Of a stretch of 36,755 nt of DNA, positions 9,750 through 27,358 are shown in pieces. This stretch comes from Clostridiaceae bacterium. Its GTDB lineage: Bacteria; Bacillota; Clostridia; Acetivibrionales; DULL01. The DNA lies in assembly GCA_012840395.1 (NCBI GenBank), contig DULL01000002.1, positions 1 through 36,755 of the forward strand. Direction: 5' to 3'. The notes below the pieces were generated by a model. That model was not told the origin of the DNA. It saw only the letters and a program-made list of their open reading frames with translations, and searched no databases. A program made the position numbers and the translations under genes. Every line of letters begins with the position of its first letter. The stretch's first letter is position 1.

Positions 9750-9778
9750 ATTTTAGAATATACCTATTAATTTGTCAA
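9750..9778 (-). promoter_or_regulatory. Sigma-A-type promoter of typA, overlapping the speB stop
   Basis: Minus strand TTGACA (9773-9778), 17-bp spacer, TAAAAT (9750-9755). The speB stop TGA (9775-9777) lies within the -35 box. A transcript would start near 9743, leaving a leader of about 43 nt to the GTG at 9700. Confidence 0.75.
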
Positions 9779-10623
9779 ATTATCAATAATAGCTCCCTCA
9801 TAAGCTTGCATGCTACCGCGGTAGATACACCACTTTGATCATAGATTGGAGATAATTCATTTATATCAATACCTACTATATTAAGAGACGCCAGTTTCAG
9901 GCAAGCCTTCAGAAGCTCATTAAAACTTACACCGCCTCCCTCAGGAGTACCTGTTCCCGGGAATATTGACGGATCCAATACATCCAGATCAATAGAAACG
10001 TAAACAGGTTTTCCAATTAGTTTTTCAACTACTTCTATTAACCTTTCAAAAGTAAATTTCTGAGTAAAAAGATGATTCTTCCCCCATAAAAATTCTTCTT
10101 TATCACCTGAACGAATGCCGAACTGAAATATTCTGTTATCGCCTATAATGTCCCATACCCTTCTCATCACTGTGGCATGAGAGAATTTTTCCCCCAGATA
10201 TTCATCCCTTAAATCAGCATGGGCATCAAAATGAATAATGTGAAGGTCTGGGAATTTTTCTGCAACAGCTTTAACCGCTCCATAAGTAACCAAATGCTCC
10301 CCTCCGATCATAAAAGGGATTTTATTATCAGTTACAATTTTTCGTACATATTCCTCTATAACGCTAAGAGCTTTTTGAGGGTTTCCATAAGCAAGTTCCA
10401 GATCTCCGGCGTCAAAAACACATATTTCGGATAAATCCCTGTCCTGATATGGACTATATGTTTCTATACCGCAAGATTCACTACGTATGGCACTACTTGC
10501 AAATCTTGCGCCCGGCCGAAAAGAAGTAGTAGAATCAAAGGGAGCACCAAAAATTACAATTCTTGATTCATCATATTCACTTTCACATCCAATAAATGTC
10601 TGAAGTTTCCTATTCATCTTCAT
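9775..10623 (-). CDS. speB: Agmatinase (ureohydrolase family)
   Basis: A 282-residue dinuclear-manganese ureohydrolase, hydrolysing agmatine to putrescine and urea. All metal ligands are visible: His110 in GGEHLVTYGAV, Asp133/His135/Asp137 in HFDAHADLRD, and Asp212/Asp214 in SIDLDVLDPS. The segment PGTGTPEGGG is diagnostic for the agmatinase/arginase fold. It overlaps the end of speE by 14 bp (an alternative ATG at 10617 overlaps by 8), implying translational coupling. With an arginine-type decarboxylase and SpeE/SpeD alongside, agmatine is the logical substrate rather than arginine or guanidinobutyrate. Last gene of the spermidine operon. Confidence 0.93.
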   Translation of the reverse strand: MKMNRKLQTFIGCESEYDESRIVIFGAPFDSTTSFRPGARFASSAIRSESCGIETYSPYQDRDLSEICVFDAGDLELAYGNPQKALSVIEEYVRKIVTDNKIPFMIGGEHLVTYGAVKAVAEKFPDLHIIHFDAHADLRDEYLGEKFSHATVMRRVWDIIGDNRIFQFGIRSGDKEEFLWGKNHLFTQKFTFERLIEVVEKLIGKPVYVSIDLDVLDPSIFPGTGTPEGGGVSFNELLKACLKLASLNIVGIDINELSPIYDQSGVSTAVACKLMRELLLII

Positions 10624-11470
10624 CTTCTTTTGTCAAAAGCTCCTTTACATAAGTAGGTAATGCAAAACTGCCTCTATGAATTTCAGTATTGTAATATTTT
10701 GTTGCTATTCCTAAATCATTCCATTCTTTATCGTTAATGTCCAACAGTGGGTCATATTTTTTTGAAGCAAATCCAAAAAGCCAATGACCTGACGGGTATG
10801 TGGGAATATGGGCCTGATATACCCGGCATATGGGAAAAAGCTCTTTAATACGCTTGTGAGCTCTCCTCATTGCCTTGACATATGTATTATAATAAGGGTT
10901 TTCATGCTGATTAACAAGTATACCGTCTTCCTTCAAAGCCTTATAACAATTTCCGTAAAATTCTTTAGTAAACAAACCTTCTCCAGGCCCAAAAGGGTCT
11001 GTGGAATCAACAATAATAAGGTCATACTCTTCCTGTTTTGCCCTTATAAATTTCAAACCGTCCTCATAATATATACTTACCCTAGGATCATCAAGCTTGC
11101 AGGCCGTTTGTTGCAAATACTCTCTTGAGACATCTACCACCATTTTATCTATTTCAACCATTTCTATTTTTTCAATGCTGCTATATCTTGTAAGTTCTCT
11201 TACAGTCCCGCCGTCACCTCCGCCAATAACAAGCACATTTCTGACATTTATATTAGTTGCCATAGGTACGTGGACTATCATATCATGATAGATAAACTCA
11301 TCCTTTTCAGTTACCATCATTAAACCATCAAGCGTCAGAAATCTCCCGAATTCTTTTGAATCAAAAACATCTATTCTCTGATAATTGCTCTGCCTTGAAA
11401 ATAAATGCTTGTCCACCTTTATTGAAAAATATACATTATCTGTATGTTTCTCTGTGTACCACAACTCCAT
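10610..11470 (-). CDS. speE: Spermidine synthase (polyamine aminopropyltransferase)
   Basis: A 286-residue cytoplasmic enzyme that transfers the aminopropyl group of decarboxylated SAM to putrescine. Seen: N-terminal MELWYTEKHTDN, the conserved FGRFLTLDGLMMVTEKDEFIYHDM (read as two adjoining motifs), glycine loop VIGGGDGGTVRE (81-92), EIDKMVVDVSREYL, and the catalytic VDSTDPFGPG with Asp155 and Asp158. Start ATG 11470 is chosen over an upstream in-frame start because AAAGGCGG lies at the right distance and the N-terminus matches the family. It is 71 bp after speA and overlaps speB. Confidence 0.95.
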   Translation of the reverse strand: MELWYTEKHTDNVYFSIKVDKHLFSRQSNYQRIDVFDSKEFGRFLTLDGLMMVTEKDEFIYHDMIVHVPMATNINVRNVLVIGGGDGGTVRELTRYSSIEKIEMVEIDKMVVDVSREYLQQTACKLDDPRVSIYYEDGLKFIRAKQEEYDLIIVDSTDPFGPGEGLFTKEFYGNCYKALKEDGILVNQHENPYYNTYVKAMRRAHKRIKELFPICRVYQAHIPTYPSGHWLFGFASKKYDPLLDINDKEWNDLGIATKYYNTEIHRGSFALPTYVKELLTKEDEDE

Positions 11471-11541
11471 AAACTTACCGCCTTTCCATTTCTGTTGCAA
11501 AATATTCCTTCATTGATAATTATGGGGACTATCATCCAGTT

Positions 11542-12990
11542 TCATACCACTACTTTAATATTATTTATTGTCATATCTTCCGTTCCCGTAAGCAAGCTTC
11601 CCTTTTGTTTGGCATATTCAATATACTCAATTACCTTTCCGGTTATACGTTCCCCGGGTGCAAGTATTGGTATGCCAGGAGGATAACACATTACAAACTC
11701 ACCACATATGAATCCTTTACTCTTGGATATGGGCAAGGATTTTTTATCTTTATAAAAGGCCTCTTGAGGTGCCATAACCACTTCAGGATTAATATATTCC
11801 ACGGGAAACATTCCTGTCTTATCCTTTGAATGCAATCTTTTTATTTCAGACAAAGAAGAGACCAGGCGTTCTATTTCCAATTCCCTGTCACCCACTGAAA
11901 TAATAGCCAGAATATTTCCTATATCTCCAAATTCAATTTGTATTCCGTATTCATCCCTCAATATATCGTATACTTCTATTCCCGCAAGACCTATATCCAT
12001 GGTATGAACCGAAAGTTTTGTCCTGTCAAAATCAAAAAAACTGTTTCCGTCTGTTAATTCCTGTCCGAAAGCATAGTATCCGCCTATCTTGTTTATCTCA
12101 TTCCTGGCATACTCTGCAAGGCCTACAACCTTTTCATATATTTCCTCTCCCCTGATAGCCAGGTTACGCCTTGAAATATCCAATGAAGACAATAAAAGAT
12201 AGGACCCGCTGGTAGTTTGGGTAAGATTCAAAATCTGACGTACATAACCTGCGTTTATATTTTTGCTCATAAGGAGAAAAGAACTCTGTGTAAGGGAACC
12301 GCCAGTTTTATGCATACTAACTGCAGCCATATCAGCTCCCGCTTTCATGGCAGATACAGGCAAATTCTTTCCAAAATAAAAATGCGTGCCATGAGCCTCA
12401 TCAACCAGGACTTTCATATTATTTTTATGTGCAAGTTGCACAATGGTTTTTAAATCTGAACAGACTCCGTAATAGGTAGGGTTATTCACAAAAACAGCTT
12501 TTGCGTCAGGATTTTCATTAATGGCTTTCTCAATATCTTTAACCGTCATACCAAGAGGTATTCCAAGCTTTTCTTGCACTCCGGGATTCACATATACTGG
12601 TATTGCTCCGCATATTACGAGGGCATTAATCGCACTCCGGTGAACATTACGGGGCATAATTATCTTATCGTTTCTTTTACATGTGCTCATTATCATGGTT
12701 TGTACCGCAGCTGTTGTACCATTCACTATGAAAAAAACATTTTCCGCTCCAAAAGCTTCTGCAGCAAGTTCTTCGGCTTCCTTAATCACTGATACGGGAT
12801 GGCAGAGATTATCTAGCAGTCTCATTGAATTAACATCCACTGAAAGGCACTGTTTTCCCAATAGTTCTGCCAATTCCGCATTGCCGCGCCCCTGCTTGTG
12901 CCCGGGAACATCAAAAGGAACTACCCTTAGAGATTTATATTTTACCAGTGCTTCATATATAGGTGCTTTTGACTGTGAAGTGCTTTTCAT
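11542..12990 (-). CDS. speA: Orn/Lys/Arg decarboxylase, probably arginine decarboxylase (Bacillus SpeA type)
   Basis: A 482-residue PLP-dependent decarboxylase of the aspartate-aminotransferase fold (group III, short form without the N-terminal wing domain of E. coli inducible enzymes). Seen: PFDVPGHKQGRG, FFIVNGTTAAVQTMIMS (PLP phosphate region), MPRNVHRSAINAL, VLVDEAHGTHFYF and SMHKTGGSLTQSS with PLP lysine 228; a C-terminal domain contains YPPGIPILAPGERI. Arginine is favoured as substrate because an agmatinase is encoded in the same operon; lysine or ornithine cannot be excluded from the sequence. It starts 12 bp after speD with GGGAGGTG. Confidence 0.9.
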   Translation of the reverse strand: MKSTSQSKAPIYEALVKYKSLRVVPFDVPGHKQGRGNAELAELLGKQCLSVDVNSMRLLDNLCHPVSVIKEAEELAAEAFGAENVFFIVNGTTAAVQTMIMSTCKRNDKIIMPRNVHRSAINALVICGAIPVYVNPGVQEKLGIPLGMTVKDIEKAINENPDAKAVFVNNPTYYGVCSDLKTIVQLAHKNNMKVLVDEAHGTHFYFGKNLPVSAMKAGADMAAVSMHKTGGSLTQSSFLLMSKNINAGYVRQILNLTQTTSGSYLLLSSLDISRRNLAIRGEEIYEKVVGLAEYARNEINKIGGYYAFGQELTDGNSFFDFDRTKLSVHTMDIGLAGIEVYDILRDEYGIQIEFGDIGNILAIISVGDRELEIERLVSSLSEIKRLHSKDKTGMFPVEYINPEVVMAPQEAFYKDKKSLPISKSKGFICGEFVMCYPPGIPILAPGERITGKVIEYIEYAKQKGSLLTGTEDMTINNIKVVV

Positions 12991-13002
12991 TCAAGCACCT
13001 CC

Positions 13003-13827
13003 CTATTCACCAAAAACATTCATGCCACTGAAAATTTCAATCATTTCCTTCCGGAGGCTGTTAATAATTGCAAGACGTTGTTTGGGTGGCAATTCATATA
13101 CGTCTTTGTTGAACAGGTAGTCCTGTAATTCAATTTCTTTTATCATCATCTTGGTATGAAAAATATTGGATTGGTATACATTGACATCTATAGCATCATA
13201 TTTTGTAAGGGTGCTTTCATCAATATAATCCTGTATGGAAGTTATTTCGTGATCAATGAAATACTTTTTACCATCTACATCTCTGGTAAATCCTCGTACC
13301 CTGTAGTCGATTGTAATAATATCTGAATCAAAACTTCCTATTAAATAATTTAGAGCGTTCAGCGGTGATATTTTGCCACAAGTTGAAACATCAATATCAA
13401 CCCGAAATGTAGATATTGCATTTCCCGGATGGTATTCAGGATATGTGTGCACAGTAACATGGCTCTTATCAAGGTGTCCAAGTACTGTTTCACGCTTTCC
13501 TGCAACAGGATAAAGCCCCAGGTTACATGATTTATCAATCATTTCTTCTGGTAGTGCTTCTTCACTAATTAATAATGTAACGCTGGCTCCCTGTGGGTCA
13601 TAATCCTGCTTTGAAATATTGAGGACATGAGCGCCTATGATATCAGTAACGCCGCACAGTATTTTTGTTAATCTTTCTGAATTATATTGCTCATCAATGT
13701 ATGCAACATAATCCTTGCGTTCTCTCTCATCATTTGCATAACACACATCATAGATATTGAAACTAAGAGTTTTCGTGAGGTTGTTAAAGCCGTACAATTT
13801 CAGCTTATTCTGCAACCCTAACACCAC
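13003..13827 (-). CDS. speD: S-adenosylmethionine decarboxylase, long E. coli-type proenzyme
   Basis: A proenzyme of about 270 residues that cleaves itself and forms a pyruvoyl cofactor, then decarboxylates SAM to supply aminopropyl groups. The whole protein follows the long (class 1A) form: [17 protein letters not shown] at the start, [18 protein letters not shown], the self-cleavage site [16 protein letters not shown] with Ser122 (numbered from GTG 13827), [20 protein letters not shown] and [20 protein letters not shown]. The short SpeH form of Bacillus is only about 125 residues. The start is uncertain: GTG 13827 or GTG 13824 follow AAAGG closely, while TTG 13815 would match the E. coli N-terminus best. 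First gene of the spermidine operon. Confidence 0.93.
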
Positions 13828-14014: not shown

Positions 14015-15529
14015 TTAATATGAAGATTCACTTTCAAATGCTATCTTATCATAGTTAGACAGTAAACCAATAAATTTTGATACAATTATACTATCAAATT
14101 GGGGTCCTGATCCAGTTATTAACTGTTCTATTGCCTGATCAAGAGTTAATTTTTTCCGATAGTGCCTGTCTGACATCATGGCATCAAAAGCATCAGCTAC
14201 AGAAAGTATCCGGGAATATAGCGGAATTTCCTCACCTTTTAGTCCAAAAGGATAACCTTTGCCGTCAATTCTTTCATGATGGTGTTTTATAATGGGAATA
14301 ACCTCTTTAAAGGTTGATAGAGCTGAAAGTATCTGAGCCCCTTTAAGAGGATGCTTTTTAATTTCATCGTATTCTTCATCAGTTAACTTACCTGCCTTAA
14401 GTAAAATATCATCAGAGATACCTATTTTACCAACGTCATGAAATATCCCGCTGACTCTCAGCAGTTCAAGTTCAGCGTCAGAGAGATTTAAAATTTTTCC
14501 TATTTCTACTGCATAATATGATACTCTGTCAGAATGTCCCCTGGTATATATGTCTCTTGCATCTACAGCTTTTCTCAGCACTTCTATTGTATCTACATAT
14601 CTTGTCCTGAGTTGTTCATATGCTATGTTTAGCTCTTCATTCTTCTTATTCACAACGCTATGCAGAAAGGAGTTATTAAGAGAAGCTGAAATCTGGTTGG
14701 TAAATATCTCCAGAAGTTTCAGAATCTCATCACTTCCCTCAATACTTGAATTTTCGATATATATTATGCCTAAAGATTCTTTATACTCAATAGATAGAGG
14801 AAGAATAATGGTGCCGTCTTTTTTATAAACCGGCTGCATTGTTGTTCTAACCTTGAATATATCCTCAATAATTGCAGGTTCCAATTTGTCAGGAAAAAAA
14901 TTATTCTCTGAGCTGTATTTACCAATACCTACAAAAATACTTTCTTTTTCATCATCAAACAATTTCAGTGGATCATCAACCATTACAAAAATATCATTAC
15001 TATTGGAAAAGGAAATAACTTGAGGCAGCGCCCTTCTGATAATTTCTTGAGGAGGCTGAAGCTGATATATTTCCGGCGCAGAAGAAACTATTCTGTCCAG
15101 TCCATTTCTGAAGGTTCTAATAGTTCTCTCATGGACTATTGATTTTATACCTGACTCCACCAAAAGCAGCAGTTGTTCAAATTTATCGCTTTTTTCACAA
15201 TACCCTTGAATATCCAATTCTTTGATGGTTTCGAGCGGGGGAGCAAGATCCTTATGCCCGGTAAGCAACAGGATATATAGGTCACGATTGAATTCTCTTA
15301 TCTTTTCAACAACCTTATCTCCATGAATTGGATTCATAAGGTAGTCCAAAATAAGAATATCGTAGTGTTCCTGTCGAATACTTTCGATAGCTTCTATAGG
15401 ATCTGTAAAACCTGTAAAATCATAACCATTTTTTCTCAATACTACGGATAGAGAATCAATAATGCCTATTTCATCATCTATAGCCACTATTCTATATCCT
15501 GTTTGTGCTCTAATGATTCTTTTTCTCAT
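14015..15529 (-). CDS. Response regulator with HD-GYP domain (c-di-GMP phosphodiesterase, RpfG-like)
   Basis: A 504-residue cytoplasmic two-component output protein. Residues 12-130 are a receiver (acidic IDDE 17-20, phospho-acceptor Asp62 in ILDYLMNP, Lys113). About 150-295 looks like a GAF-type sensory fold, with a coiled-coil linker at 293-315. Residues 315-490 are an HD-GYP domain: RGHSDRVSYYAVEIG, HD pair His364-Asp365 in GIFHDVGKIG, HHHER (416-420) and GKGYPFGLKGEEI, so all catalytic motifs are intact and hydrolysis of cyclic di-GMP is expected. Start ATG 15529 has GGGGG upstream and lies inside the end of the kinase gene (20 bp overlap), which makes the kinase its partner. There is no DNA-binding domain, so it acts through c-di-GMP level rather than by direct transcription control. 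Confidence 0.9.
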   Translation of the reverse strand: MRKRIIRAQTGYRIVAIDDEIGIIDSLSVVLRKNGYDFTGFTDPIEAIESIRQEHYDILILDYLMNPIHGDKVVEKIREFNRDLYILLLTGHKDLAPPLETIKELDIQGYCEKSDKFEQLLLLVESGIKSIVHERTIRTFRNGLDRIVSSAPEIYQLQPPQEIIRRALPQVISFSNSNDIFVMVDDPLKLFDDEKESIFVGIGKYSSENNFFPDKLEPAIIEDIFKVRTTMQPVYKKDGTIILPLSIEYKESLGIIYIENSSIEGSDEILKLLEIFTNQISASLNNSFLHSVVNKKNEELNIAYEQLRTRYVDTIEVLRKAVDARDIYTRGHSDRVSYYAVEIGKILNLSDAELELLRVSGIFHDVGKIGISDDILLKAGKLTDEEYDEIKKHPLKGAQILSALSTFKEVIPIIKHHHERIDGKGYPFGLKGEEIPLYSRILSVADAFDAMMSDRHYRKKLTLDQAIEQLITGSGPQFDSIIVSKFIGLLSNYDKIAFESESSY

Positions 15530-17372
15530 CAATTACCCCCGTAAAGTTTGCAGACCTTTCATATGGAATGGATACATAAAAAGTCGTACCTTTCCCATTT
15601 TCTGATGTGAAGCTAATATTTCCACCAAAACGCCCTTTAATATTTATATATGACATGTACAGGCCTAACCCAGTACCTTCTTTTCCTTTTGTTGTAACCA
15701 TTTCTTTGAAAAGCTTATTCCTTATATTTAAGGGTATACCCTGTCCATAATCTCTTATAGAGAATACAATTTCATTATCTACTAAATTAATGTTAAAGTC
15801 AATATCGCCACTACCTCCATTATAAGAATGTATGGCATTCATAATAATATTATCAAAAACTTGAACCAGACTGTTAATATCTCCTTGCAGCTGGGTATTC
15901 ATATCAACCTGAAAGTTTATATTGAGGTTACAGTGATATCTTTTTAATTCATGTTTCATTAAGAGTTCTACTCTTTTAACTACTTCGTCCAAAGTAAAAC
16001 TCTCCGGGAAATCCGATTCAATTTGCATAGCTTGCCCTTTAACCGTTGAAATAATATCGGACATGTATGAACAATGGGGTTTCATTTTTTCAAGCCACGA
16101 CATCATCTCCTTCGCTATTTCACGGTGGTCTTCAAGAGTAACCTGCGGGTCCCCTATTGACAAGTCATACTCGCTAACAAGGTCTTTCAACGCTTCAATA
16201 CCACCTGCAATTGACATAATAGGAGTTTTTAAATTATGGGCAATTCCTCCTATTAATTGTCCCAGTGAAGCCAATCTCTCTTTTTCCATCAGTATTGCTT
16301 GTTTCTCTTTTATTGTTTGTAAATCCTTTTTACTTTGAGTGATATCTTTAAAAAGTACTATTGTACCTACATGGTTGTCATTTGGAATTATAGGGGTAAA
16401 TTCAATAGTAAAATACTTGTTGAAACTGCCATGTTTTATGTTAGCTTCAAAAGAAAAAGTCTTCCTTTCTTCTTTGGAAGCATTTAAATATCTTTCAAAT
16501 TCTTTTAAATCAATACCTTCAAGATCATTAGACTCAATCATTTCAAAAAAGCTTTTTTTCCGGTTGATCTGAAAAATATCTTTAAATGTATCAGTAAAAG
16601 TTTTATTGTAATCAATTATGTCAAATTCTTCATTCAAAACAACAAAACTATCTGAAATAAGGTCTACAACCTTCTGAAGAGCGATAGGAGATATATTCAG
16701 AAAATTATATTTTTGTATTGCATAAATATAACATATAGCAGCAAAAGTGAAAGAAATTGGTGTTGCTGCCGCAGATAATTTTACAATTTTAAATGAATAT
16801 AATATATTAACAACTAAAGGAAATGAAGTACCAAAAACAATTAAAACGGATTGTTTGGAAAAAAACCCTGAATTCTTAAAAGAAAAATAGAATAAATAAC
16901 ATAATCCTATTACCACATATGTATATAATATTAAACTATGAATTGGAAAATAACTGCCATAGACTATATCACCTTCATTAAAGGAATAATTCTTATAAAA
17001 CAACTTGTGATAGTCATTTGTAAGCAATATTAAATAGGAGAATGTAGGAGGGATCAATAATAAATGATGTTTTGCAGATATTTTTACCTCAGTGCGGGCA
17101 AATATTATACCTGTGGCCATCAATGCAAGTGGTGAATAGCATACACCAAAATAACTGATCAACATAAGAATTTTCCCGTCACTGCCATAAAGATAATGAG
17201 CATAATCTCTAAGCAATACTGCAAAACACCAAATAAACATTAATATCATATTACTGAAGAATGCATAATGAATTTGTTTCTTTCTTTTAATCCTGATAAT
17301 ATAAAATAATATAAACAAGATAATAAGCACTGATAAATGCAATAAAACAAATACCAGGTCAATTTTTTTCAT
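15510..17372 (-). CDS. Seven-transmembrane PAS sensor histidine kinase
   Basis: A 620-residue membrane sensor. Residues 5-220 hold seven hydrophobic segments of the HisKA_7TM type; the stretch LLTNDYHKLFYKNYSF between segments is typical of that module. A PAS domain follows (about 235-348, ending VGTIVLFKDITQSKKDLQ), then the dimerisation/phosphoacceptor helix with His379 in IGGIAHNLKTPIMSIAGGIE, and an ATPase domain with N box FDNIIMNAIHSY, G1 RDYGQGIPLNIR and G2 GTGLGLYMSY. The partner is the HD-GYP regulator whose start it overlaps. It begins 56 bp after the NRPS stop with a modest AAGAGAT site; no clear terminator separates them, so read-through from the synthetase gene is possible. The ligand is unknown. 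Confidence 0.9.
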   Translation of the reverse strand: MKKIDLVFVLLHLSVLIILFILFYIIRIKRKKQIHYAFFSNMILMFIWCFAVLLRDYAHYLYGSDGKILMLISYFGVCYSPLALMATGIIFARTEVKISAKHHLLLIPPTFSYLILLTNDYHKLFYKNYSFNEGDIVYGSYFPIHSLILYTYVVIGLCYLFYFSFKNSGFFSKQSVLIVFGTSFPLVVNILYSFKIVKLSAAATPISFTFAAICYIYAIQKYNFLNISPIALQKVVDLISDSFVVLNEEFDIIDYNKTFTDTFKDIFQINRKKSFFEMIESNDLEGIDLKEFERYLNASKEERKTFSFEANIKHGSFNKYFTIEFTPIIPNDNHVGTIVLFKDITQSKKDLQTIKEKQAILMEKERLASLGQLIGGIAHNLKTPIMSIAGGIEALKDLVSEYDLSIGDPQVTLEDHREIAKEMMSWLEKMKPHCSYMSDIISTVKGQAMQIESDFPESFTLDEVVKRVELLMKHELKRYHCNLNINFQVDMNTQLQGDINSLVQVFDNIIMNAIHSYNGGSGDIDFNINLVDNEIVFSIRDYGQGIPLNIRNKLFKEMVTTKGKEGTGLGLYMSYINIKGRFGGNISFTSENGKGTTFYVSIPYERSANFTGVIDEKKNH

Positions 17373-17428
17373 TTAATATTACATCTCTTTCTTTGACTAA
17401 TTAAAATTATGCCTATATTCCCCTATTT

Positions 17429-20400
17429 CTAAATATTCCAGTTATGTTTGATGAATTTGGTAATTTTATTTAAATATAAGCCGTCAACAGGAGGCCATTG
17501 AAAACCTATCCTGGTTAAGTACTTTTGGGTAATGTCTGAATTTATTCTAATACTGGTTTTGCCTAAAGAACGGTTTTGAAAGTACATACCTGAAACAAGG
17601 CCAGTTAATGCACCTTGTTTTTCTTTATCTCTTGATATGGTTGATATATAATTATCAAAATCCTGTCTGCTTATCACTTCAATACATATACCATTATTCT
17701 TTAAAGACTCTACTATGTCCTTAAAAACAATTGTATTGTTATTGCAGAGATGAAATACTCTCCCACAAGGTTGTCCGGAGTCAATAAGTTTTATTATGGC
17801 ACGGCTGCAATAATCTACAGGAGTAAGATCTACACTTTCCTGTAAAAGATCTTCTGAAATTCTTTTAATTTTAGCAATTGATGCTATCATGTTATAAAAT
17901 GCATTTTCATACATATTTATTTGAAACCAACCATCTGAATACCTGCCTGTCAGATTTCCCAGTCTGAATATCGCAGCTTCAAGACCTTCCTTCATTGCCC
18001 TAAAAACAAGTCCCTCAGCTTCAAATTTACTTGTAATATATACATTATTATTGAAACTTTGACCAATATAAAAGTCTTTTTCAGTGAAGCTGATTTCTTT
18101 TCCTAAGTAGTTTTCAGTATGACTTCCCGCTACACTGCATGTTGAAACATGAGACATTGTCTTACCATATGTTGTGCAAAAATCAATAACTTTCTGGGTA
18201 CCCTGGACATTAATTTCCTTAAAATCACTATAATTCCCATAATGTTTTACTATTGCTGCAGTATGAATTACATGGCTTACATCCTCTGATACAATTCTTA
18301 AATCATTATCGTTCATACCAAGATTATCCAGGGTTATATCTCCACTTATAACGTAAATCCTTGAATCGTTTATCTTTGGATACCTTCCAGGGAAATAATA
18401 GTTTAATAACTTCTTAAGTCTTTCCTTTCCTTCTTTCTTGCTCTCGCTCCGAACAAGGCAGTATACCCTGGCGTTAGTGCTCGAAACCAGTTCATTCAGT
18501 ATATGTATCCCCAGAAAACCTGTTGCTCCTGTTAGTAATATCCCACTGTCATTAATATTTCTATTTTTTATCATTCTAACAGAACTATCCTTCTGGATAC
18601 TTGAAATATTAATATCTGCCCCGATACTATGTTCATTCCAGCTATTATATTCAATATCATCAATACTCCAGGATCCTTTGATTCTCCCGGCAAGCTTGCT
18701 GATTGTCTGGTATTTGTAAAAATCATCAATAGTTAAACCCCAATTATAATGAAGAATTTTTGTCTGTACTTGGATTACTGCAAGAGAGTCTCCCCCAAGC
18801 TCAAAGAAATTATGGTTTACACTAAGTTTATCTTTCTCGATATTCAGAACTTCTGACCAGACATTTACCAGTATTTTTTCTATGTCGTCTTCTGCCGGCT
18901 TATACTCTTCTTCTGTATCAAAAAGGCGTTCAGGCTCCGGTAACTGATTTCTGTCTATCTTTCCATTTGAATTCAAAGGGAAAGCTTCAAGTATAACAAA
19001 ATACGTAGGTATCATGTAATCGGGTAACTTTTTGGAAAGGAACAATTTTAAAGAGGCAATAGATATTTTTGTATTCTTTTTAGGAACAAGGTAGGCACAC
19101 AGATACTTTCTTCCACCTTCTTCCTTATCTACAACCAGGGCCTCTTTTATTTGTTTATGAGTTAATAGCACATTGACTATTTCATCAATTTCAACTCTTA
19201 TTCCCCTGATTTTAATTTGATGGTCCATTCTCCCGATATATTCAATCTCTCCATTTCCAAGCCATTTACCCAAGTCGCCCGTTCTATATATTCTTTCTCC
19301 CGCATCAAAAGGTGAGGGAATGAATTTGCTGCGAGTCAACCCAAAATCATTTAGATATCCTTCCGCAAGCCCATGACCTCCTATACAAATTTCTCCTACT
19401 ACTCTCTCAGGCAATAACTTCAGGTCCTGGTCAAGAATAAAAATCTTTGTATTTCCAATGGGCTTGCCAATAGTAATGTTATCAGTATTGGTTAAGTCTT
19501 TTATAGTAGAATATATTGTTGTCTCTGTTGGTCCATAAGCATTATAAATTTTCGCAGATGTTAATTCTTTAAGCCTGGCAAGAAATTTTACGTCTAAAAC
19601 TTCTCCGCCAATAATTATATCGGTTAATTTCATAAAGGATATTGAACTCAACTGGTCGTCTGCCATAAGTTTTAAAGTTGAGGGTGTTGTGATAGTAATA
19701 TTGGCATTATGCTTTATTATAAGTTCATTTAATAGTCTTGGATTATTATATTGAGTATCATTGGCTAAAACAATTTTCATACCCTTTGAAAGAGGAAGCA
19801 ATGTTTCAAAAGCAAAAATATCAAAACACATGGTTGTTTTACACAGCATGGTTTTATTAGATAAACTAATATCCGCTGAGGCAACATGTATAAAGTTATT
19901 TAAAGGTTTATGGGAAAGTATAACCCCTTTTGGATTGCCTGTTGAGCCCGATGTGTAAATAACGTATAGCGGGTGGTGGCTTTGGCTGACTTTTGGTGGA
20001 TTCTCTTCACTGCATTTATTAATATCTTCACTATCAACCAGTACAATATCACATCCGGTTACCGGTACATCTTTTAATCTCTCACTCTGTGTCAAGATAA
20101 TGACTGCCTTGCTGTTTTCAATCATATATTTTATTCTTTCATAAGGATACCTGTAATCTATGGGCATGTATGCCCCGCCTGCTTTTATGACACCCAATAT
20201 TCCGGCAATCAACTCAACAGACCTGTTTAGCATTATTCCTACAATACTACCGGGGGCAATACCTTTTTTCCTTAAATACCAGGCAATCTGATTTGCTTTT
20301 TTATTCAAATCCGAGTAAGAAACCTGTAAATTTTCGAATAATAATGCAGTATTGTCAGGAGCTTTTTCTACTTGTTCTTCAAATAATTCATCTATAGTTT

Positions 20401-23400
20401 TATCTAAGGGATATTCCACTGCAGTCATATTATAGCTTTGTATTATTCTTTTTTTATCTTCTTCTGAAAGTAGTTCAATGTCTTTTATTACTTTTTCAGG
20501 ATCTTCCAGTACATCTTCCAAAATGCTGATATAATGTTCTCCCATTAGCCTAATTGTATTTGAGGTGTAGGTTCCTGCACAATAGTCAAATAAGAAAGCT
20601 ATGCCTTCATCAGTTTCCCAAGCCTCCAGTACCAGGGGAAATCTTGCAGTTTTATAACCAAGTTCGAAAGTAGTTATATTAAGATCATCCATTTTTATAT
20701 TAGGAGAATCCTTTGCGCGTAAAGAAAACATGGTATTAAATATTGGATTCCTCTCTACGTCCCTTTTCAGTTTCAGGCTGTTTACCAGGTCATCAAACTG
20801 ATAATCCTGGTTCTCAAGTGCTTTTAATGTGCAGTCCTTTACTTTAGATAAAAACTCTTTATATGTCAGATCTTTGCGGGGGAAATTTCTTAAAGCAAGT
20901 GTATTTACAAATGTGCCTATGATATTTTGAAATTCAATTTTTTTCCTTCCTGCTACCGGAGTACCAACAATTATGTCTTCCTGGCCGGAATATTTTGATA
21001 AAAGAATATTATATACACTTAGCAGGATCATAAAAAGTGTTGTCCCTGTTCCCGAAGCAAGTTTCTTTATCTTTTCTGCAACTGATTTCCCTACAGTAAA
21101 CCTCCATGAACCGACACCATTTGTTTTTGACAAATGCGGTGAAAAGTCAGTTGGCAGATTTAATACCGGAAGTTCTCCCGAAAGCTGTTCTAACCAGTAT
21201 TTTTCCTGCTTTTTCAGAGTTTCTGAATTAACCAGTTCATTTTGCCATACAGCATAGTCTTTATAATGTACCTTTAACTCTGATAAACTTTTACCGCTGT
21301 ACAAATCACCTAATTCTTTCATTAAAATATTAATAGACAAACCATCTGAAATTATATGATGGATATCAAAAAGAAGTACATGCCTGTCCTTACCTATCTT
21401 TACAAGACTTGCTCTCATAATCGGTGCCTTGGTAAGATCGAAAGGCTGGACAAAATTGTTAATTATATCTTTGATATCATTTGTTTCTCCATCAATATAC
21501 TCAATGGAAAAGTCCACTCTTTCCAAAATCTTTTGAACAGGTACTCCGTCAACCAATTTAAAACAAGTTCTTAATGCTTCATGCCTGTTAATCAGATGCT
21601 TAAAACAGTTTTCTAATAGAGTTACATCAAGTTTACCCTCAATATTTAATGCTCCGGGCATATTATATGAAGTTCCGTCCTCATCAAGCTGAGTCAAAAT
21701 ATACATTCTCTTTTGAGCAGAAGAAAGCGGATAATATTCCCGAATTCCAGCATGAGGCACTTCCGCTATCTCTTTTTTCCCCAGATTTCTTATGTGCCCA
21801 GCCTGTTCCTTTATAGTCTCCAGCTTATAAATGTCTTCTATAGAAATATTTACATTAAATTCTTTGGAAATAGCAGATACAACATAAATAATACTGAGTG
21901 AATCTCCACCAAGTTCAAAAAAGCTGTCATTTACGCTTATCTTATCAATGTTTAACGCTCTGCACCATATTTCTGACAACTTTATTTCAATTTCATCTGC
22001 AGGCAGTTCAAATCCGCTCACTTTATTTTCACTTAAGACGGGGGTGGGGAGCTTTTCCCTGTCAATCTTACCATTTGGAGTCAATGGTATCTCATTAATA
22101 TACATGAAATATGATGGAATCATATATACAGGCAGCTGTTGTGACAGAAAATTCCTGATATTACGGATTTCCTTTCCATCCTTGGGCACTATATATGCGC
22201 ATAAATACTTCCTGAAATATTGATCTTCCCTGTCGATAACAACTGCCTTTTCCACCTGCTCATGCTGAAGCAGCAGGTTTTCTATTTCACCTAGTTCTAT
22301 TCTTAGACCTCTTATCTTTACCTGATTGTCCGCTCTTCCAACAAACTCTATTTCCCCGTTGGTAAGCCATCTTCCAAGATCTCCTGTTTTATAAATATAT
22401 TCTCCTTTAACAAAAGGGCTTGGAATAAATTTTTCACCTGTCATCTGTTCTCGATTTATATACCCTCTTCCAACTCCTGCTCCTCCAATATAAATTTCTC
22501 CTGTTCTATTTAACGGAAGAGGATTTAAATATTCATCCAGTATATATATTTTTGTATTTGAAACAGGTGCTCCAATGCTTATGTAACCTGCATCCGTAAG
22601 ATCCTTAATGGTGGAATATATGGTTGTTTCTGTAGGTCCGTATCCGTTAAAAATTCTGGCTTTTGTTATACTCCTTAGCTTTTCAAGTAAAGCTATAGGA
22701 AAAGCCTCTCCTCCAAGAATAATTGTCTTTAGCCGCCTTAATCCATCTGTTATATCTCCGGTACTTAGGAACATATTCATTATTGAAGGAGTGGTCTGTA
22801 AAACATCAGCCTCGTTTTCTATAATTGCTTTATTAAGTTTCTCTGGAATTCTTTGTTGTTCTCTGTTCGCAATTATAACCTTGCAACCTTTAAGAAGAGG
22901 AATAATAGCTTCAAATATGAATATATCAAAAGAAACTGTGGTTATGGATATTACACTGGTTCTATGAGAAAATCCCACAATATCTGATGTTCCGGCCATT
23001 AAGCTGACAATTCCCCTATTGTTTAACATAACACCTTTCGGCTGCCCTGTAGAACCAGATGTATATATCACATATGCCAAACTGTCTAAAGAGCTAATAC
23101 TCTCAAGGTTGCTTCCAGGTTTGTCAGCAATGTCATCATCCTGGAATGTTACTATTTCACCTCTGAAATTATACTTTCTGACTAAATCCTTCTGTGTAAG
23201 CAAAATCTTGCTCCCACTGTCTTCGATAATAAATTTAATTCTTTCGTCAGGGTAATCAGGATCTATTGGCAAATAAGCCGCTCCCGCCTTTAGAATTCCA
23301 ATAATACCCACTATCATATCAAGAGAACGATTTGCTATTAAAGATACTATACTGTCTCTGGTTGCTCCTTTAGCTCTGAGTACTCTTGCCAGTCTGTTAG

Positions 23401-24883
23401 CTCTTTCATTGAGTTCCCTGTAGGTTAAACTTTTATCTTCAAATACAAGCGCAATATTGTCCGGAGTCCTTGATACTTGTTCTTCAAACAGTTGATGTAC
23501 AGTTCTGTCTTCTGAATAATGGAAAGTTGTATCATTAAAATCATTTAGTATTTTTTTCTTTTCATTTTCCTCCATAATCTCCAGCTGGTAAAGCTTTTTT
23601 GAAGGATCAGAAATAATGTCATTTATAAGAACCATAAGGCCATTATGGATTTGATGAATATCCTTTTCAGTAAAAAGATTTTCCAGGTAATCATAATCCA
23701 ATATCATGCTTCCGGAACTTTCCCTGTCACTTATATGTATATATAACGGATCTGTCTGATTGCCATTAAAATTCCAATGCGTTACATAATCAGTTATATA
23801 AGTGGATTTATTAAATTTTGCATTTTGATAGGATATCACTATATCATATAGGTTATCAACAAACTTGTATTTTTCTCTTAGACTTTTTAATAATAAATCA
23901 TATGGATAATTACTGTGTCTTAATATAGATCTCCATTCTCTTGATACTTGTTGTACAAAGTTTACAAAATCCAGATTTTTATCAATTTTAAGACGGAAAG
24001 GAACCGTGTTGACAAATATACCCAAAGTATCTTTTTCTCTGCTATTGGATCTATTTAAAACCGGTGTACCAATTATAATATCATTTTTTGATGTAACCCT
24101 TGCTATATAGCAAAATAAAGTTGATAAAAAAAAGATAAAAGGTGATATTTTATATTCATCACAAAAAGCATTTATCTTAAGTAATTGTTCAGGAGAAATA
24201 ATGTTAGTTTTACGTATTGAACCTGTACACCTGTTATTTCTTGTGGAATATGTTAAACTGGCTTTCTCTTCCGGTATACCATTAAATATGGAATTCCAGA
24301 ATTCTTCATCCTTTTGGAATTTATTAGAGTTCTTGTACTCAACCTCTTTTTGTATATAATCCACATAAGAAGGCTTAACATCCTCCGGAATCGGTGTATT
24401 GTTCACCAGCCTCCAGTAATATTCCAGAATCTGATTTATAACCGAGGTCATAGTCCAGGCATCGGATACTAAATGATGAGCTTTTATGTAGAAGCCGCCT
24501 TCCTGCTGGCTTAGCTTAACCAAAGCAAAATAGTATAAACTTGAATCTAAAAGTTGGAAGTTTTCCCGGGTTTTATCATCACTCCACTTTTCCAGTGCTG
24601 ATGCTTCCTCTCGGGAAAAATCCACATAGTCCAGCTTGATATATTTGTATTCAGAGATATATTGGAAAGGAGTTACGTCTTTTTCCACTATCCTGAACCT
24701 CATGGAATCATTTTTTTCAAAGGCTATATTAATAGCCCTCTCAAGAGAACAATAGTCAATTTCTCCTTTAAGAATTACTGTACCTGCAATATTTCCGATA
24801 CTTGTCCCAGGGTAATATTTTTCTATATACCATATGCCCATCTGAGGATGTGAAAGAGGATAGAACTCTAATGTATTATACAT
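17429..24883 (-). CDS. Two-module non-ribosomal peptide synthetase with reductive release (C-A-T-C-A-T-R)
   Basis: A 2484-residue synthetase. Domains in order: C1 (6-440, active motif HHLVSDAW 136-143); A1 (460-945, AYVIYTSGSTGQPKG, FDIFIFE 652-658, NGYGPTE, NGKID with Lys939); T1 (960-1035, carrier Ser995 in LGGDSL); C2 (1048-1480, HHIISDG 1175-1181); A2 (1495-1985, YVIYTSGSTGNPKG, FDIFAFE 1687-1693, Lys1975); T2 (1995-2070, Ser2033); terminal thioester reductase (2113-2484, GATGFLG 2119-2125, Thr in STCS near 2248, YITSK with Tyr2282/Lys2286). The reductase would release the dipeptide as an aldehyde or alcohol using NAD(P)H. A leading C domain suggests N-acylation of the first residue. Specificity pockets read from alignment to GrsA: A1 D-I-F-Q-I-G-G-I-Y-K, A2 D-I-F-I-I-G-A-I-Y-K; substrates unassigned, A1 somewhat glycine-like, A2 hydrophobic. 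Start ATG 24883 has GGGAGG and lies 17 bp after mutS2. No phosphopantetheinyl transferase, MbtH protein, thioesterase or exporter is visible nearby. Confidence 0.95.
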   Translation of the reverse strand: MYNTLEFYPLSHPQMGIWYIEKYYPGTSIGNIAGTVILKGEIDYCSLERAINIAFEKNDSMRFRIVEKDVTPFQYISEYKYIKLDYVDFSREEASALEKWSDDKTRENFQLLDSSLYYFALVKLSQQEGGFYIKAHHLVSDAWTMTSVINQILEYYWRLVNNTPIPEDVKPSYVDYIQKEVEYKNSNKFQKDEEFWNSIFNGIPEEKASLTYSTRNNRCTGSIRKTNIISPEQLLKINAFCDEYKISPFIFFLSTLFCYIARVTSKNDIIIGTPVLNRSNSREKDTLGIFVNTVPFRLKIDKNLDFVNFVQQVSREWRSILRHSNYPYDLLLKSLREKYKFVDNLYDIVISYQNAKFNKSTYITDYVTHWNFNGNQTDPLYIHISDRESSGSMILDYDYLENLFTEKDIHQIHNGLMVLINDIISDPSKKLYQLEIMEENEKKKILNDFNDTTFHYSEDRTVHQLFEEQVSRTPDNIALVFEDKSLTYRELNERANRLARVLRAKGATRDSIVSLIANRSLDMIVGIIGILKAGAAYLPIDPDYPDERIKFIIEDSGSKILLTQKDLVRKYNFRGEIVTFQDDDIADKPGSNLESISSLDSLAYVIYTSGSTGQPKGVMLNNRGIVSLMAGTSDIVGFSHRTSVISITTVSFDIFIFEAIIPLLKGCKVIIANREQQRIPEKLNKAIIENEADVLQTTPSIMNMFLSTGDITDGLRRLKTIILGGEAFPIALLEKLRSITKARIFNGYGPTETTIYSTIKDLTDAGYISIGAPVSNTKIYILDEYLNPLPLNRTGEIYIGGAGVGRGYINREQMTGEKFIPSPFVKGEYIYKTGDLGRWLTNGEIEFVGRADNQVKIRGLRIELGEIENLLLQHEQVEKAVVIDREDQYFRKYLCAYIVPKDGKEIRNIRNFLSQQLPVYMIPSYFMYINEIPLTPNGKIDREKLPTPVLSENKVSGFELPADEIEIKLSEIWCRALNIDKISVNDSFFELGGDSLSIIYVVSAISKEFNVNISIEDIYKLETIKEQAGHIRNLGKKEIAEVPHAGIREYYPLSSAQKRMYILTQLDEDGTSYNMPGALNIEGKLDVTLLENCFKHLINRHEALRTCFKLVDGVPVQKILERVDFSIEYIDGETNDIKDIINNFVQPFDLTKAPIMRASLVKIGKDRHVLLFDIHHIISDGLSINILMKELGDLYSGKSLSELKVHYKDYAVWQNELVNSETLKKQEKYWLEQLSGELPVLNLPTDFSPHLSKTNGVGSWRFTVGKSVAEKIKKLASGTGTTLFMILLSVYNILLSKYSGQEDIIVGTPVAGRKKIEFQNIIGTFVNTLALRNFPRKDLTYKEFLSKVKDCTLKALENQDYQFDDLVNSLKLKRDVERNPIFNTMFSLRAKDSPNIKMDDLNITTFELGYKTARFPLVLEAWETDEGIAFLFDYCAGTYTSNTIRLMGEHYISILEDVLEDPEKVIKDIELLSEEDKKRIIQSYNMTAVEYPLDKTIDELFEEQVEKAPDNTALLFENLQVSYSDLNKKANQIAWYLRKKGIAPGSIVGIMLNRSVELIAGILGVIKAGGAYMPIDYRYPYERIKYMIENSKAVIILTQSERLKDVPVTGCDIVLVDSEDINKCSEENPPKVSQSHHPLYVIYTSGSTGNPKGVILSHKPLNNFIHVASADISLSNKTMLCKTTMCFDIFAFETLLPLSKGMKIVLANDTQYNNPRLLNELIIKHNANITITTPSTLKLMADDQLSSISFMKLTDIIIGGEVLDVKFLARLKELTSAKIYNAYGPTETTIYSTIKDLTNTDNITIGKPIGNTKIFILDQDLKLLPERVVGEICIGGHGLAEGYLNDFGLTRSKFIPSPFDAGERIYRTGDLGKWLGNGEIEYIGRMDHQIKIRGIRVEIDEIVNVLLTHKQIKEALVVDKEEGGRKYLCAYLVPKKNTKISIASLKLFLSKKLPDYMIPTYFVILEAFPLNSNGKIDRNQLPEPERLFDTEEEYKPAEDDIEKILVNVWSEVLNIEKDKLSVNHNFFELGGDSLAVIQVQTKILHYNWGLTIDDFYKYQTISKLAGRIKGSWSIDDIEYNSWNEHSIGADINISSIQKDSSVRMIKNRNINDSGILLTGATGFLGIHILNELVSSTNARVYCLVRSESKKEGKERLKKLLNYYFPGRYPKINDSRIYVISGDITLDNLGMNDNDLRIVSEDVSHVIHTAAIVKHYGNYSDFKEINVQGTQKVIDFCTTYGKTMSHVSTCSVAGSHTENYLGKEISFTEKDFYIGQSFNNNVYITSKFEAEGLVFRAMKEGLEAAIFRLGNLTGRYSDGWFQINMYENAFYNMIASIAKIKRISEDLLQESVDLTPVDYCSRAIIKLIDSGQPCGRVFHLCNNNTIVFKDIVESLKNNGICIEVISRQDFDNYISTISRDKEKQGALTGLVSGMYFQNRSLGKTSIRINSDITQKYLTRIGFQWPPVDGLYLNKITKFIKHNWNI

Positions 24884-24900
24884 AATGACCTCCCATTTGA

Positions 24901-27288
24901 CTATTTAATCTCTGCTATAGTAACACCCATTTCTCCTTCTCCATAACTTCCGAGTCTAAAAGATTTAACATGGGGATGTCCTTTCAGAAACTGGTGTATT
25001 CCCTTTCTTAACGCACCAGTTCCTTTTCCGTGTATAATTGTTATTTCCTTCAATCCTGCAATACTTGCATCATCAAGAAACTTATCTATTAGCTCGCATG
25101 CTTCATCCACTGTGGTCCCTCTCAGGTCTATCTCGGTAACAGCAGCCATGGCTTTTGACATAGAAATCTTTCCCGAACCTACTTTATGAACCTGGCTCTT
25201 TTGTTCATCTATAAGTTTAAGTGTACTAATATGGACATTGATTTTCATTATACCTGCCTGTACAATTACCTCACCATCTTTATCAGGAGGACTTATTACG
25301 ATCCCTTTCTGATTCAGATGAAGAATTAGTACACTATCTCCCGGTTTCAAATTTTCAGGAGCTTTGGCGTTTTCTTCTATGGGTATTAATGGAACTGCCA
25401 AGGCCTGGTCCAATTTGTCAAGTTCATTTTTTAGCTTAAGTCTCAGTTCTTCAGCTTCTTTGTTCTTTTTGGCAATCTCGGTCTCTCTTTCCAGATTTCT
25501 TAATCTCTCAAGAATTTCCTGAGATTGCTCTTTAGCAGAAATTAAAATCTTTTTGGCTTCTTCCCTGGCTTCTCTCAACAGTTTTTCCTTTTCAGCCTCA
25601 AATTTCTTCTTTTGCCTTTCCATTTCATCCTTCAATTTTTCTATTTCGATCCTGTAACTCTCGGTTTTCATTCTCTCAGCAAGGGTTTTCTGCCTATCCT
25701 CTTCCATAGACATAAGTATATCTTCAAACTGAATATTTTCACTGCTTAAAAATTCTTTGGCCTTTTTGAGTATTTCCTCCGAAAGTCCCAGCCTTCTGGA
25801 AATGGCAAAGGCATTACTTTTTCCGGGTACTCCTATCAGGAGATTGTAAGTCGGCCTTAAAGTCTGAACATCAAACTCACAGGAAGCATTCTCAACTCCC
25901 GGTGTTGATATAGCATATAATTTCAGCTCACTATAATGTGTAGTTGCGACTACAGTAGCCCTGATCTGCCTAAGATGCTCTAATATTGCCATAGCAAGGG
26001 CTGCTCCTTCGGAAGGATCTGTCCCTGCTCCAAGTTCATCAAAAAGCACAAGAGATTTTTCATCCGCCTCATCAAGTATCTGTACAATATTAGTCATGTG
26101 GGATGAAAAAGTACTAAGACTTTGTTCTATACTTTGCTCATCTCCAATGTCTGCAAAAACATGCCCGAAAATTCCCATGACTGTGCCATCATTTGCAGGG
26201 ACATGAAGTCCTGCTTGAGTCATTAACACAAATAGGCCCACTGTCTTTAATGTAACTGTTTTACCACCGGTATTAGGACCTGTTATAACAATAGTACTTA
26301 TAGAATCTCCTACCCAGAAATTTATAGGTACTACTGTTTTTTTATCCAGCAACGGGTGTCTTCCTTTTTTAATAATAATACGTCCTTCAGTATTTAGCCT
26401 GGGACAAACGCAATTATATTCAAGGCTCATCCTTCCCTTGGCAAATATAAAATCCAGTCTTGCCAGCAGATGAACACTGGATAAAAGCAAATCTGTAATA
26501 TTTCTTACATCATCGGTCAATTCCCTGAGTATTCTTTCTATTTCTGCCTGTTCTTTAATCCTGAGCTGTCTGATATCATTATTTGCATTTACAACAGACA
26601 TTGGCTCAATAAAAATTGTAGCTCCGCTGGAGGACATATCATGAACTATTCCGGGAACTTCATTCCTGAATTCCTGCTTTACCGGAATAACATAACGGTC
26701 TCCTCTAACTGTGACAATAGCATCCTGCAAATATTTCTGATATGATGAAGATTTTATTAATTCATTTAACCTGTCCTTTATAGAATTCTGCTTGTCCCTT
26801 ATCTGTCTTCTTATATTACCTAAAAGAGGGCTGGCCTCATCGGATAATTCTTCATCATTTATAATCGACATCTCAATTCTGTCTTCTAAACGCTTATTAG
26901 TAACCAAACCGCTTATCAGTTTATTTATTATGCTGTCGGGATTAAAGTCCTTATCCCGTTCACCAGTACCGTTATAAGCTTTTAAATTTCTGCAGGCCCT
27001 TAAAGTATCACCAATTCCAAGTAATTCTCCTGGATTTAGCACTCCGCCTAATTCAAGCCTTTTAAGGCTGCTCCTGATATCATGGATGCCTCCTAATGGA
27101 GGATTACCTTTTCGCAGAATATAGCTTACTGCATCATCTGTTTCATCCAGCATTTCCTTTATACGGTGCTGGTCAGTTTCTGGTAAAAGCTGTTCGGCTA
27201 TCTCCCTTCCCAATACAGAAGTTGTCATATTAGCCAATATTCTGATTATCTTGTCAAATTCCAACACCTTTAAGGTTCTTTCATGCAT
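24901..27288 (-). CDS. mutS2: MutS2 ATPase/endonuclease (Smr domain)
   Basis: A 795-residue MutS-family protein lacking the mismatch-recognition domain. Relatives suppress recombination or rescue collided ribosomes (the latter shown in Bacillus). Seen: N-terminal MHERTLKVLEFDKII, core IVHDMSSSGATIFIEP, Walker A TGPNTGGKTVTLKT (about 336-349), Walker B region LVLFDELGAGTDPSEGAAL, VATTHYSELK, a long charged coiled coil (about 500-620) and a C-terminal Smr nuclease domain (EIDLRGTTVDEACELIDKFL; ITIIHGKGTGALRKGIHQFL). Start ATG 27288 is chosen because the family starts there and the longer reading (to 27342) adds 18 unrelated residues; its GGAG is 11 bp off. It has its own promoter and is followed closely by the NRPS gene. 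Confidence 0.95.
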   Translation of the reverse strand: MHERTLKVLEFDKIIRILANMTTSVLGREIAEQLLPETDQHRIKEMLDETDDAVSYILRKGNPPLGGIHDIRSSLKRLELGGVLNPGELLGIGDTLRACRNLKAYNGTGERDKDFNPDSIINKLISGLVTNKRLEDRIEMSIINDEELSDEASPLLGNIRRQIRDKQNSIKDRLNELIKSSSYQKYLQDAIVTVRGDRYVIPVKQEFRNEVPGIVHDMSSSGATIFIEPMSVVNANNDIRQLRIKEQAEIERILRELTDDVRNITDLLLSSVHLLARLDFIFAKGRMSLEYNCVCPRLNTEGRIIIKKGRHPLLDKKTVVPINFWVGDSISTIVITGPNTGGKTVTLKTVGLFVLMTQAGLHVPANDGTVMGIFGHVFADIGDEQSIEQSLSTFSSHMTNIVQILDEADEKSLVLFDELGAGTDPSEGAALAMAILEHLRQIRATVVATTHYSELKLYAISTPGVENASCEFDVQTLRPTYNLLIGVPGKSNAFAISRRLGLSEEILKKAKEFLSSENIQFEDILMSMEEDRQKTLAERMKTESYRIEIEKLKDEMERQKKKFEAEKEKLLREAREEAKKILISAKEQSQEILERLRNLERETEIAKKNKEAEELRLKLKNELDKLDQALAVPLIPIEENAKAPENLKPGDSVLILHLNQKGIVISPPDKDGEVIVQAGIMKINVHISTLKLIDEQKSQVHKVGSGKISMSKAMAAVTEIDLRGTTVDEACELIDKFLDDASIAGLKEITIIHGKGTGALRKGIHQFLKGHPHVKSFRLGSYGEGEMGVTIAEIK

Positions 27289-27358
27289 ACATATAATTAC
27301 TCCAAACCTACATATTTTTACTAAATTATTTATAAAGTTCAATTTTTATTGATTTATA

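Follow-up and report, generated by a model that had tools for sequence, protein, structure and literature searches.

The 36,755-nt stretch of clostridial DNA analyzed here (the window) encodes a nonribosomal peptide synthetase (NRPS) that heads a three-gene cassette, being followed on the same strand by a sensor histidine kinase (HK) and by a response regulator (RR) that is a predicted cyclic di-GMP (c-di-GMP) phosphodiesterase. We show that this trio is conserved over many families and genomic contexts in Clostridia-type bacteria, and the comparisons described below indicate that the three genes are very probably coupled in function. A preliminary description of the NRPS gene as "stand-alone" was wrong in this respect. 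Our main reading, to which we assign a probability of roughly 0.5, is that the NRPS supplies the small molecule in a conserved signaling cassette that works through c-di-GMP, perhaps as an autoinducer synthase.

The NRPS and its terminal reductase

The NRPS gene is a single intact open reading frame (ORF) of 2484 aa on the minus strand (positions 17429-24883) with no internal stops, and the plus strand over the same interval is stop-rich. Pfam returned Condensation, AMP-binding, and PP-binding domains twice each and NAD_binding_4 once, with scores well over the cut-offs, giving two complete condensation-adenylation-thiolation (C-A-T) modules and a terminal reductase (R) with its Rossmann and Tyr/Lys motifs. 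A chance origin of the C-A-T-C-A-T-R architecture is excluded, and the domain order and length given in the preliminary description were borne out by the ORF, the Pfam domains, and the intact C, T, and R motifs (Table 1).

The terminal domain had been described as a thioester reductase with intact GATGFLG and Tyr/Lys residues, and we found this to be correct. The motifs are present, and the nearest PDB matches were an NRPS reductase (6vtj, 3.6e-54) and the AusA reductase (4f6c, 2.5e-37), with MxaA next and carboxylic acid reductases much farther away (3.8e-13). The NRPS scored under the cut-off for TIGR03443 (aminoadipate reductase), and its best NCBIfam match was AusA (NF047350) at 1542 bits, short of the model's cut-off of 2500, aligned from the first A domain to the end. 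The enzyme is a relative of AusA that falls outside the AusA equivalog, and its sequence supports a predicted peptide-aldehyde architecture.

T domains of NRPSs usually require an Sfp-type enzyme. The only phosphopantetheinyl transferase match in the source genome (G000; 2.84 Mb, 119 contigs) is AcpS-sized (L034, G000:C48:30076-30426), and eight other cassette genomes likewise gave a single AcpS-sized match. No AusB-like transferase adjoins the NRPS, and none was found in the genome apart from AcpS. The T domains may be loaded by AcpS or by an unrecognized enzyme.

Table 1. Features of the window locus and stand-alone PilZ-X proteins of relatives
Feature	Position	Strand	Basis or remark
NRPS, C-A-T-C-A-T-R, 2484 aa	17429..24883	-	ORF, Pfam, motifs
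First C domain (aa 5-440), HHLVSDAW at 136, starter-like clade	23564..24871	-	Pfam, motif, C-domain tree
A domain 1 (aa 466-945), pocket code DIFQIGGIYK	22049..23488	-	Pfam, motif
T domain 1 (aa 969-1031), FFELGGDSL at 988	21791..21979	-	Pfam, motif
Second C domain (aa 1048-1480), HHIISDGL at 1175, groups with internal C domains	20444..21742	-	Pfam, motif, tree
A domain 2 (aa about 1497-1983), pocket code DIFIIGAIYK	18935..20395	-	Pfam, motif
T domain 2 (aa about 2003-2068), FFELGGDSL at 2026	18680..18877	-	Pfam, motif
Thioester reductase domain (aa 2115-2484), GATGFLG at 2119, YITSK at 2282-2286 (Y2282/K2286)	17432..18541	-	Pfam, motif, PDB search
HK, cassette gene 2: 7TM (PF16927), PAS, HisKA, HATPase	15510..17372	-	Pfam, alignment
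RR, cassette gene 3: REC-DUF3369-HD-GYP, predicted c-di-GMP phosphodiesterase	14015..15529	-	Pfam, alignment
17-nt gap between mutS2 and NRPS, with the NRPS ribosome-binding site GGGAGG	24884..24900	-	Sequence
mutS2, upstream of NRPS; context, outside the cassette	24901..27342	-	Shared in one group of relatives only
Stand-alone PilZ-X proteins of relatives	L224:3147-4775, L225:4179-5807, L226:3854-5482, L253:114-1835		Ahead of the HK/HD-GYP pair

The kinase and the predicted c-di-GMP regulator

The HK gene begins 56 nt after the NRPS and its end overlaps the start of the RR gene; a scan found no terminator-like sites between the three. H379 of the HK is invariant in the aligned cassette kinases, as are D63 of the REC domain, H365, D366, HHE, and DGxGYP in the aligned relatives of the RR, whose HD and GYP phosphodiesterase motifs are both intact. 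Domain analysis found no DNA-binding domain in the RR, so its predicted output is the breakdown of c-di-GMP. The source genome encodes eight GGDEF proteins and one PilZ protein, and a c-di-GMP network is therefore present. Directly after the RR (window positions 9775-13827) lies a polyamine block comprising an arginase family gene, spermidine synthase, an Orn/Lys/Arg decarboxylase, and S-adenosylmethionine decarboxylase.

Conservation of the NRPS-HK-RR cassette

Within the window's order, 13 genomes, the window counted, have homologs of all three genes side by side. In other families of the order the HK and RR are 38-62% and 44-62% identical, respectively, to those of the window and adjoin NRPSs, and at two loci (L035 and L037) the RR lies on the opposite side of the NRPS. 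To avoid a selection led by the NRPS, we sampled blindly with the RR alone as the query, using a class sample of 391 genomes and a phylum sample of 398. Outside the order, the class sample held the RR in 15 genomes, with an adjoining HK in 14; the gene before the HK was visible in 10 of these and was an NRPS in seven (including a T-thioesterase fragment in G318) and a stand-alone PilZ-X protein, described below, in three. The phylum sample added 14 further genomes, all with an HK beside the RR, in which the preceding gene was an NRPS in 12 and PilZ-X in one, the contig being cut in the last. Taken together, the two blind samples thus gave 23 loci outside the order at which the gene before the HK could be seen: it was an NRPS at 19, PilZ-X at 4, and anything else at none. 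Neither control set contained an NRPS: there were none at 64 generic HD-GYP loci (1.0 Mb) and none at 13 loci of kinase-less RR orthologs from one family of the order. The latter orthologs (L210, L213, L217, L218, L220-L223, L227-L231) often occur two per genome.

Grouping 24 loci by common flanking genes gave 13 groups, with no flank shared between groups. An inherited single neighborhood, marked by the mutS2/BipA flank, was considered as the cause of the linkage and rejected, since it covers one locus group only. The distances of the NRPS first C domain, the HK core, and the RR are correlated (r 0.67-0.80, p 0.0005), a pattern that vertical descent can also yield. Among the named carriers are Clostridiaceae DTU059, Hungateiclostridiaceae UBA1305, a chicken-derived metagenome-assembled genome (MAG), and other uncultured Clostridia, and several NRPSs from Clostridia MAGs carry the cassette (L102, L105, L107, and L108). 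In the chicken-derived MAG and the other uncultured Clostridia the RR is only about 350 aa long; such a short form, which apparently lacks DUF3369, is found in gut-type Clostridia MAGs.

Exceptions exist, in that three genomes (G018, G054, and G028) have an HK-RR pair with no adjoining NRPS. G028 has a PilZ-NRPS with no neighboring kinase or regulator and a cassette-type HK-RR pair elsewhere in the chromosome (L043:9066-14693, L084:8658-12013). In G630 (L242), two identical 480-aa ORFs at 11362-12801 (minus strand) and 17022-18461 (plus strand), which are probably one insertion element, split the NRPS and the HK and leave the RR intact. In G037 (L085:3-17125) the cassette is doubled, the order being RR, a PilZ-NRPS of the C-A-T-C-A-T-R type, a HAMP-type kinase, RR, a 7TM kinase, and then BipA.

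PilZ domains on the synthetases of relatives

Six relatives carry about 545 extra residues ahead of the first C domain of the NRPS, made up of a PilZ part and a second region of about 335 aa that we call domain X. In 5 of 5 such proteins tested the PilZ family (PF07238) reached 24.6-33.2 bits, over its cut-off of 22.5, the sixth having come from a genome search, and RxxxR is present in 6 of 6 and (D/N)xSxxG in 5 of 6; by both score and motif these are PilZ c-di-GMP receptor domains. Domain X gave no match in Pfam, NCBIfam, or PDB profile searches, and a GNAT-like identity, which we had considered for it, was unsupported by all three. In four genomes of other families, a stand-alone PilZ-X protein of 543-574 aa replaces the NRPS before the HK-RR pair. 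Read by gene-fusion logic, these arrangements place NRPS, PilZ-X, and the HK-RR pair in a single pathway. A PilZ domain is absent from the window NRPS itself, whose link to c-di-GMP is therefore one of gene linkage only.

Proposed direction of signaling

On the main reading, acyl-CoA or acyl-ACP would supply an acyl group that the first C domain couples to the initial amino acid; module 2 would append the second; and the reductase would free an N-acyl dipeptide aldehyde. This aldehyde, or a derivative of it, would be the signal sensed by the HK, which would phosphorylate the HD-GYP RR and so shift the level of c-di-GMP. In relatives with a PilZ-NRPS, c-di-GMP would in turn feed back on the synthetase, closing the loop.

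The variety of the predicted products fits such a role. The 47 A domains of the cassettes carry 27 distinct types of pocket code; codes of relatives include some that we take, by the published code, to be clear Thr, Ser, Gly-like, Pro, and Asn-like. Many cassette NRPSs are single-module and some terminate in a thioesterase. Because the codes are diverse and the module number and release domain differ, the cassette appears to be kept while the molecule varies, and diverse codes beside a conserved HK and RR are the pattern expected of private signals. Together with the dedicated membrane sensor and the presence of one synthase per cassette, this diversity leads us to favor the autoinducer direction, tentatively and at a little under even odds. 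For the window enzyme itself, we know of no standard pocket code that DIFQIGGIYK or DIFIIGAIYK matches, and a literature search with these strings found nothing, in agreement with the earlier remark that they do not fit a standard amino acid cleanly; we rejected a confident substrate assignment on these grounds.

The signal might also run the other way. The HK would then sense an outside cue and the HD-GYP domain would lower c-di-GMP, switching the synthetase on or off, with the aldehyde serving as an effector, e.g., a protease inhibitor, instead of a signal. The position of PilZ receptor domains on the NRPSs themselves, and of the stand-alone PilZ protein in the place of the NRPS before HK-RR, would suit this arrangement. 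So would the finding that sensor type does not track the pocket code: two cassettes share a Thr code and differ in sensor, with a HAMP-type kinase in one and a 7TM kinase in the other (L039 and L040), which argues somewhat against the HK sensing the NRPS product. However, PilZ is missing from the NRPS of the window and from most others in the cassettes, leaving no evident route there for c-di-GMP to reach the enzyme, and the RR has no DNA-binding domain through which it could control transcription. We consider this reversed order rather unlikely, and note that it and the autoinducer reading may be combined into a feedback loop.

Extended beyond the window, the autoinducer reading would describe a widespread and hitherto undescribed signaling system of Clostridia-type Bacillota. 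Its signals, N-acyl amino acids or peptides of diverse kinds, would be made by compact NRPSs and freed by a reductase or thioesterase; a dedicated sensor kinase would detect them and act through the HD-GYP regulator on c-di-GMP, which in some lineages would also bind to PilZ on the NRPS. We put this forward as a possibility short of an even chance.

The first C domain and the predicted product

In a tree of C domains, 20 first C domains of cassette NRPSs formed one clade (support 84/92), apart from nearly all internal C domains and from the TycC, LgrA, and Txo2 references. This clade joined the starter C domain of RzmA with support of 100/98, a grouping that rests on about 330 aligned residues, a long branch, and a single starter reference, and that also takes in one further first-position C domain, from relative L010. 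The RzmA starter domain (PDB 7c1h/7c1k) is of the lipoinitiating kind. No second NRPS was found in the 119 contigs of the source genome, leaving zero upstream NRPS donors, and a working first C domain must draw its acyl donor from elsewhere. Since this domain keeps its catalytic motif, is starter-like, and has no donor NRPS in the genome, acylation is favored; the placement in the tree is support for a starter role, not proof of it. An N-acyl peptide aldehyde is thus the probable product of the window NRPS.

The preliminary description had proposed an "N-acyl dipeptide aldehyde or pyrazinone", of which the first half is favored and the pairing fails: an N-acylated dipeptide aldehyde should not cyclize to a pyrazinone because its amine is blocked, and the two products are largely mutually exclusive. 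A pyrazinone would follow if the first C domain were non-acylating, in which case a free dipeptide aldehyde would give a dihydropyrazinone or pyrazinone as with AusA, possibly as a pyrazinone autoinducer. AusA is indeed the best NCBIfam match, at the sub-cut-off score given above, but the first C domain keeps HHxxxD and lies in the cassette first-C clade that groups with the RzmA starter. AusA, moreover, has been described (PMC12153313) as an A-T-C-A-T-R enzyme that comes with a dedicated transferase, AusB, whereas no such transferase adjoins the window NRPS and only an AcpS-sized match was found in the genome. A free aldehyde is accordingly an improbable product.

That the gene is an ordinary clostridial peptide-aldehyde or pyrazinone NRPS making protease inhibitors, with regulators adjacent by chance, is very unlikely: its architecture and reductase fit that known class, and dipeptide aldehydes from the gut act as inhibitors of host proteases (Guo et al. 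2017, cited in PMC8210680 and PMC12327764), but chance adjacency is excluded by the counts from the blind loci, the empty generic HD-GYP controls, and the 13 genomic contexts, and dipeptide aldehydes are not possible for all cassettes given the one-module and thioesterase-ended members. Of the protease-inhibitor role first suggested, the fit of architecture and reductase to the known class stands, whereas the HK and HD-GYP partners and the PilZ fusions of relatives move the likely role towards signaling.

Comparison with known systems

Should the signaling system prove true, gut peptide aldehydes would be bacterial signals first, and we suggest that small peptides of this type serve bacteria as signals and are more than protease inhibitors. 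With a sensor kinase and c-di-GMP linked to the NRPS in a conserved manner, a signaling role can be tested directly. The PilZ-NRPS fusions would provide a new mode of peptide synthetase control, and the cassette in gut-type Clostridia MAGs could connect reactive metabolites with decisions on biofilm or motility. An N-acyl tail is reported (PMC8210680) to stabilize some dipeptide aldehydes.

The window enzyme resembles AusA, the aureusimine synthetase of Staphylococcus aureus, in its two modules and terminal NAD(P)H reductase, and differs from it in having a first C domain with an intact motif, no adjoining phosphopantetheinyl transferase, and HK and HD-GYP partners. It is like the NRPSs of gut Clostridia (Guo et al. 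2017) and the ruminopeptin enzyme (Schneider and Balskus 2018) in being of the dipeptide-aldehyde type; the excerpted review literature makes no mention of a kinase, HD-GYP, or PilZ link for the gut aldehyde NRPSs. The first C domains of the cassettes group with the starter domain of RzmA, on a long RzmA branch, and apart from internal C domains. Compared with REC-DUF3369-HD-GYP regulators, the RR keeps the REC and HD-GYP residues and the DUF3369 linker, and here forms a cassette-bound orthologous group. The PilZ-NRPSs share RxxxR and (D/N)xSxxG with YcgR-type PilZ proteins, and the stand-alone PilZ-X forms match the N-terminal part of YcgR weakly; unlike in YcgR-type proteins, the PilZ domain of relatives is fused to an NRPS by way of domain X, an arrangement absent from the window gene. 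Searches of the open-access literature on PilZ and NRPSs, on peptide aldehydes and c-di-GMP, and on HD-GYP proteins, NRPSs, and quorum sensing turned up no account of such a system. The parts of the cassette are of known kinds, and their combination appears to be new.
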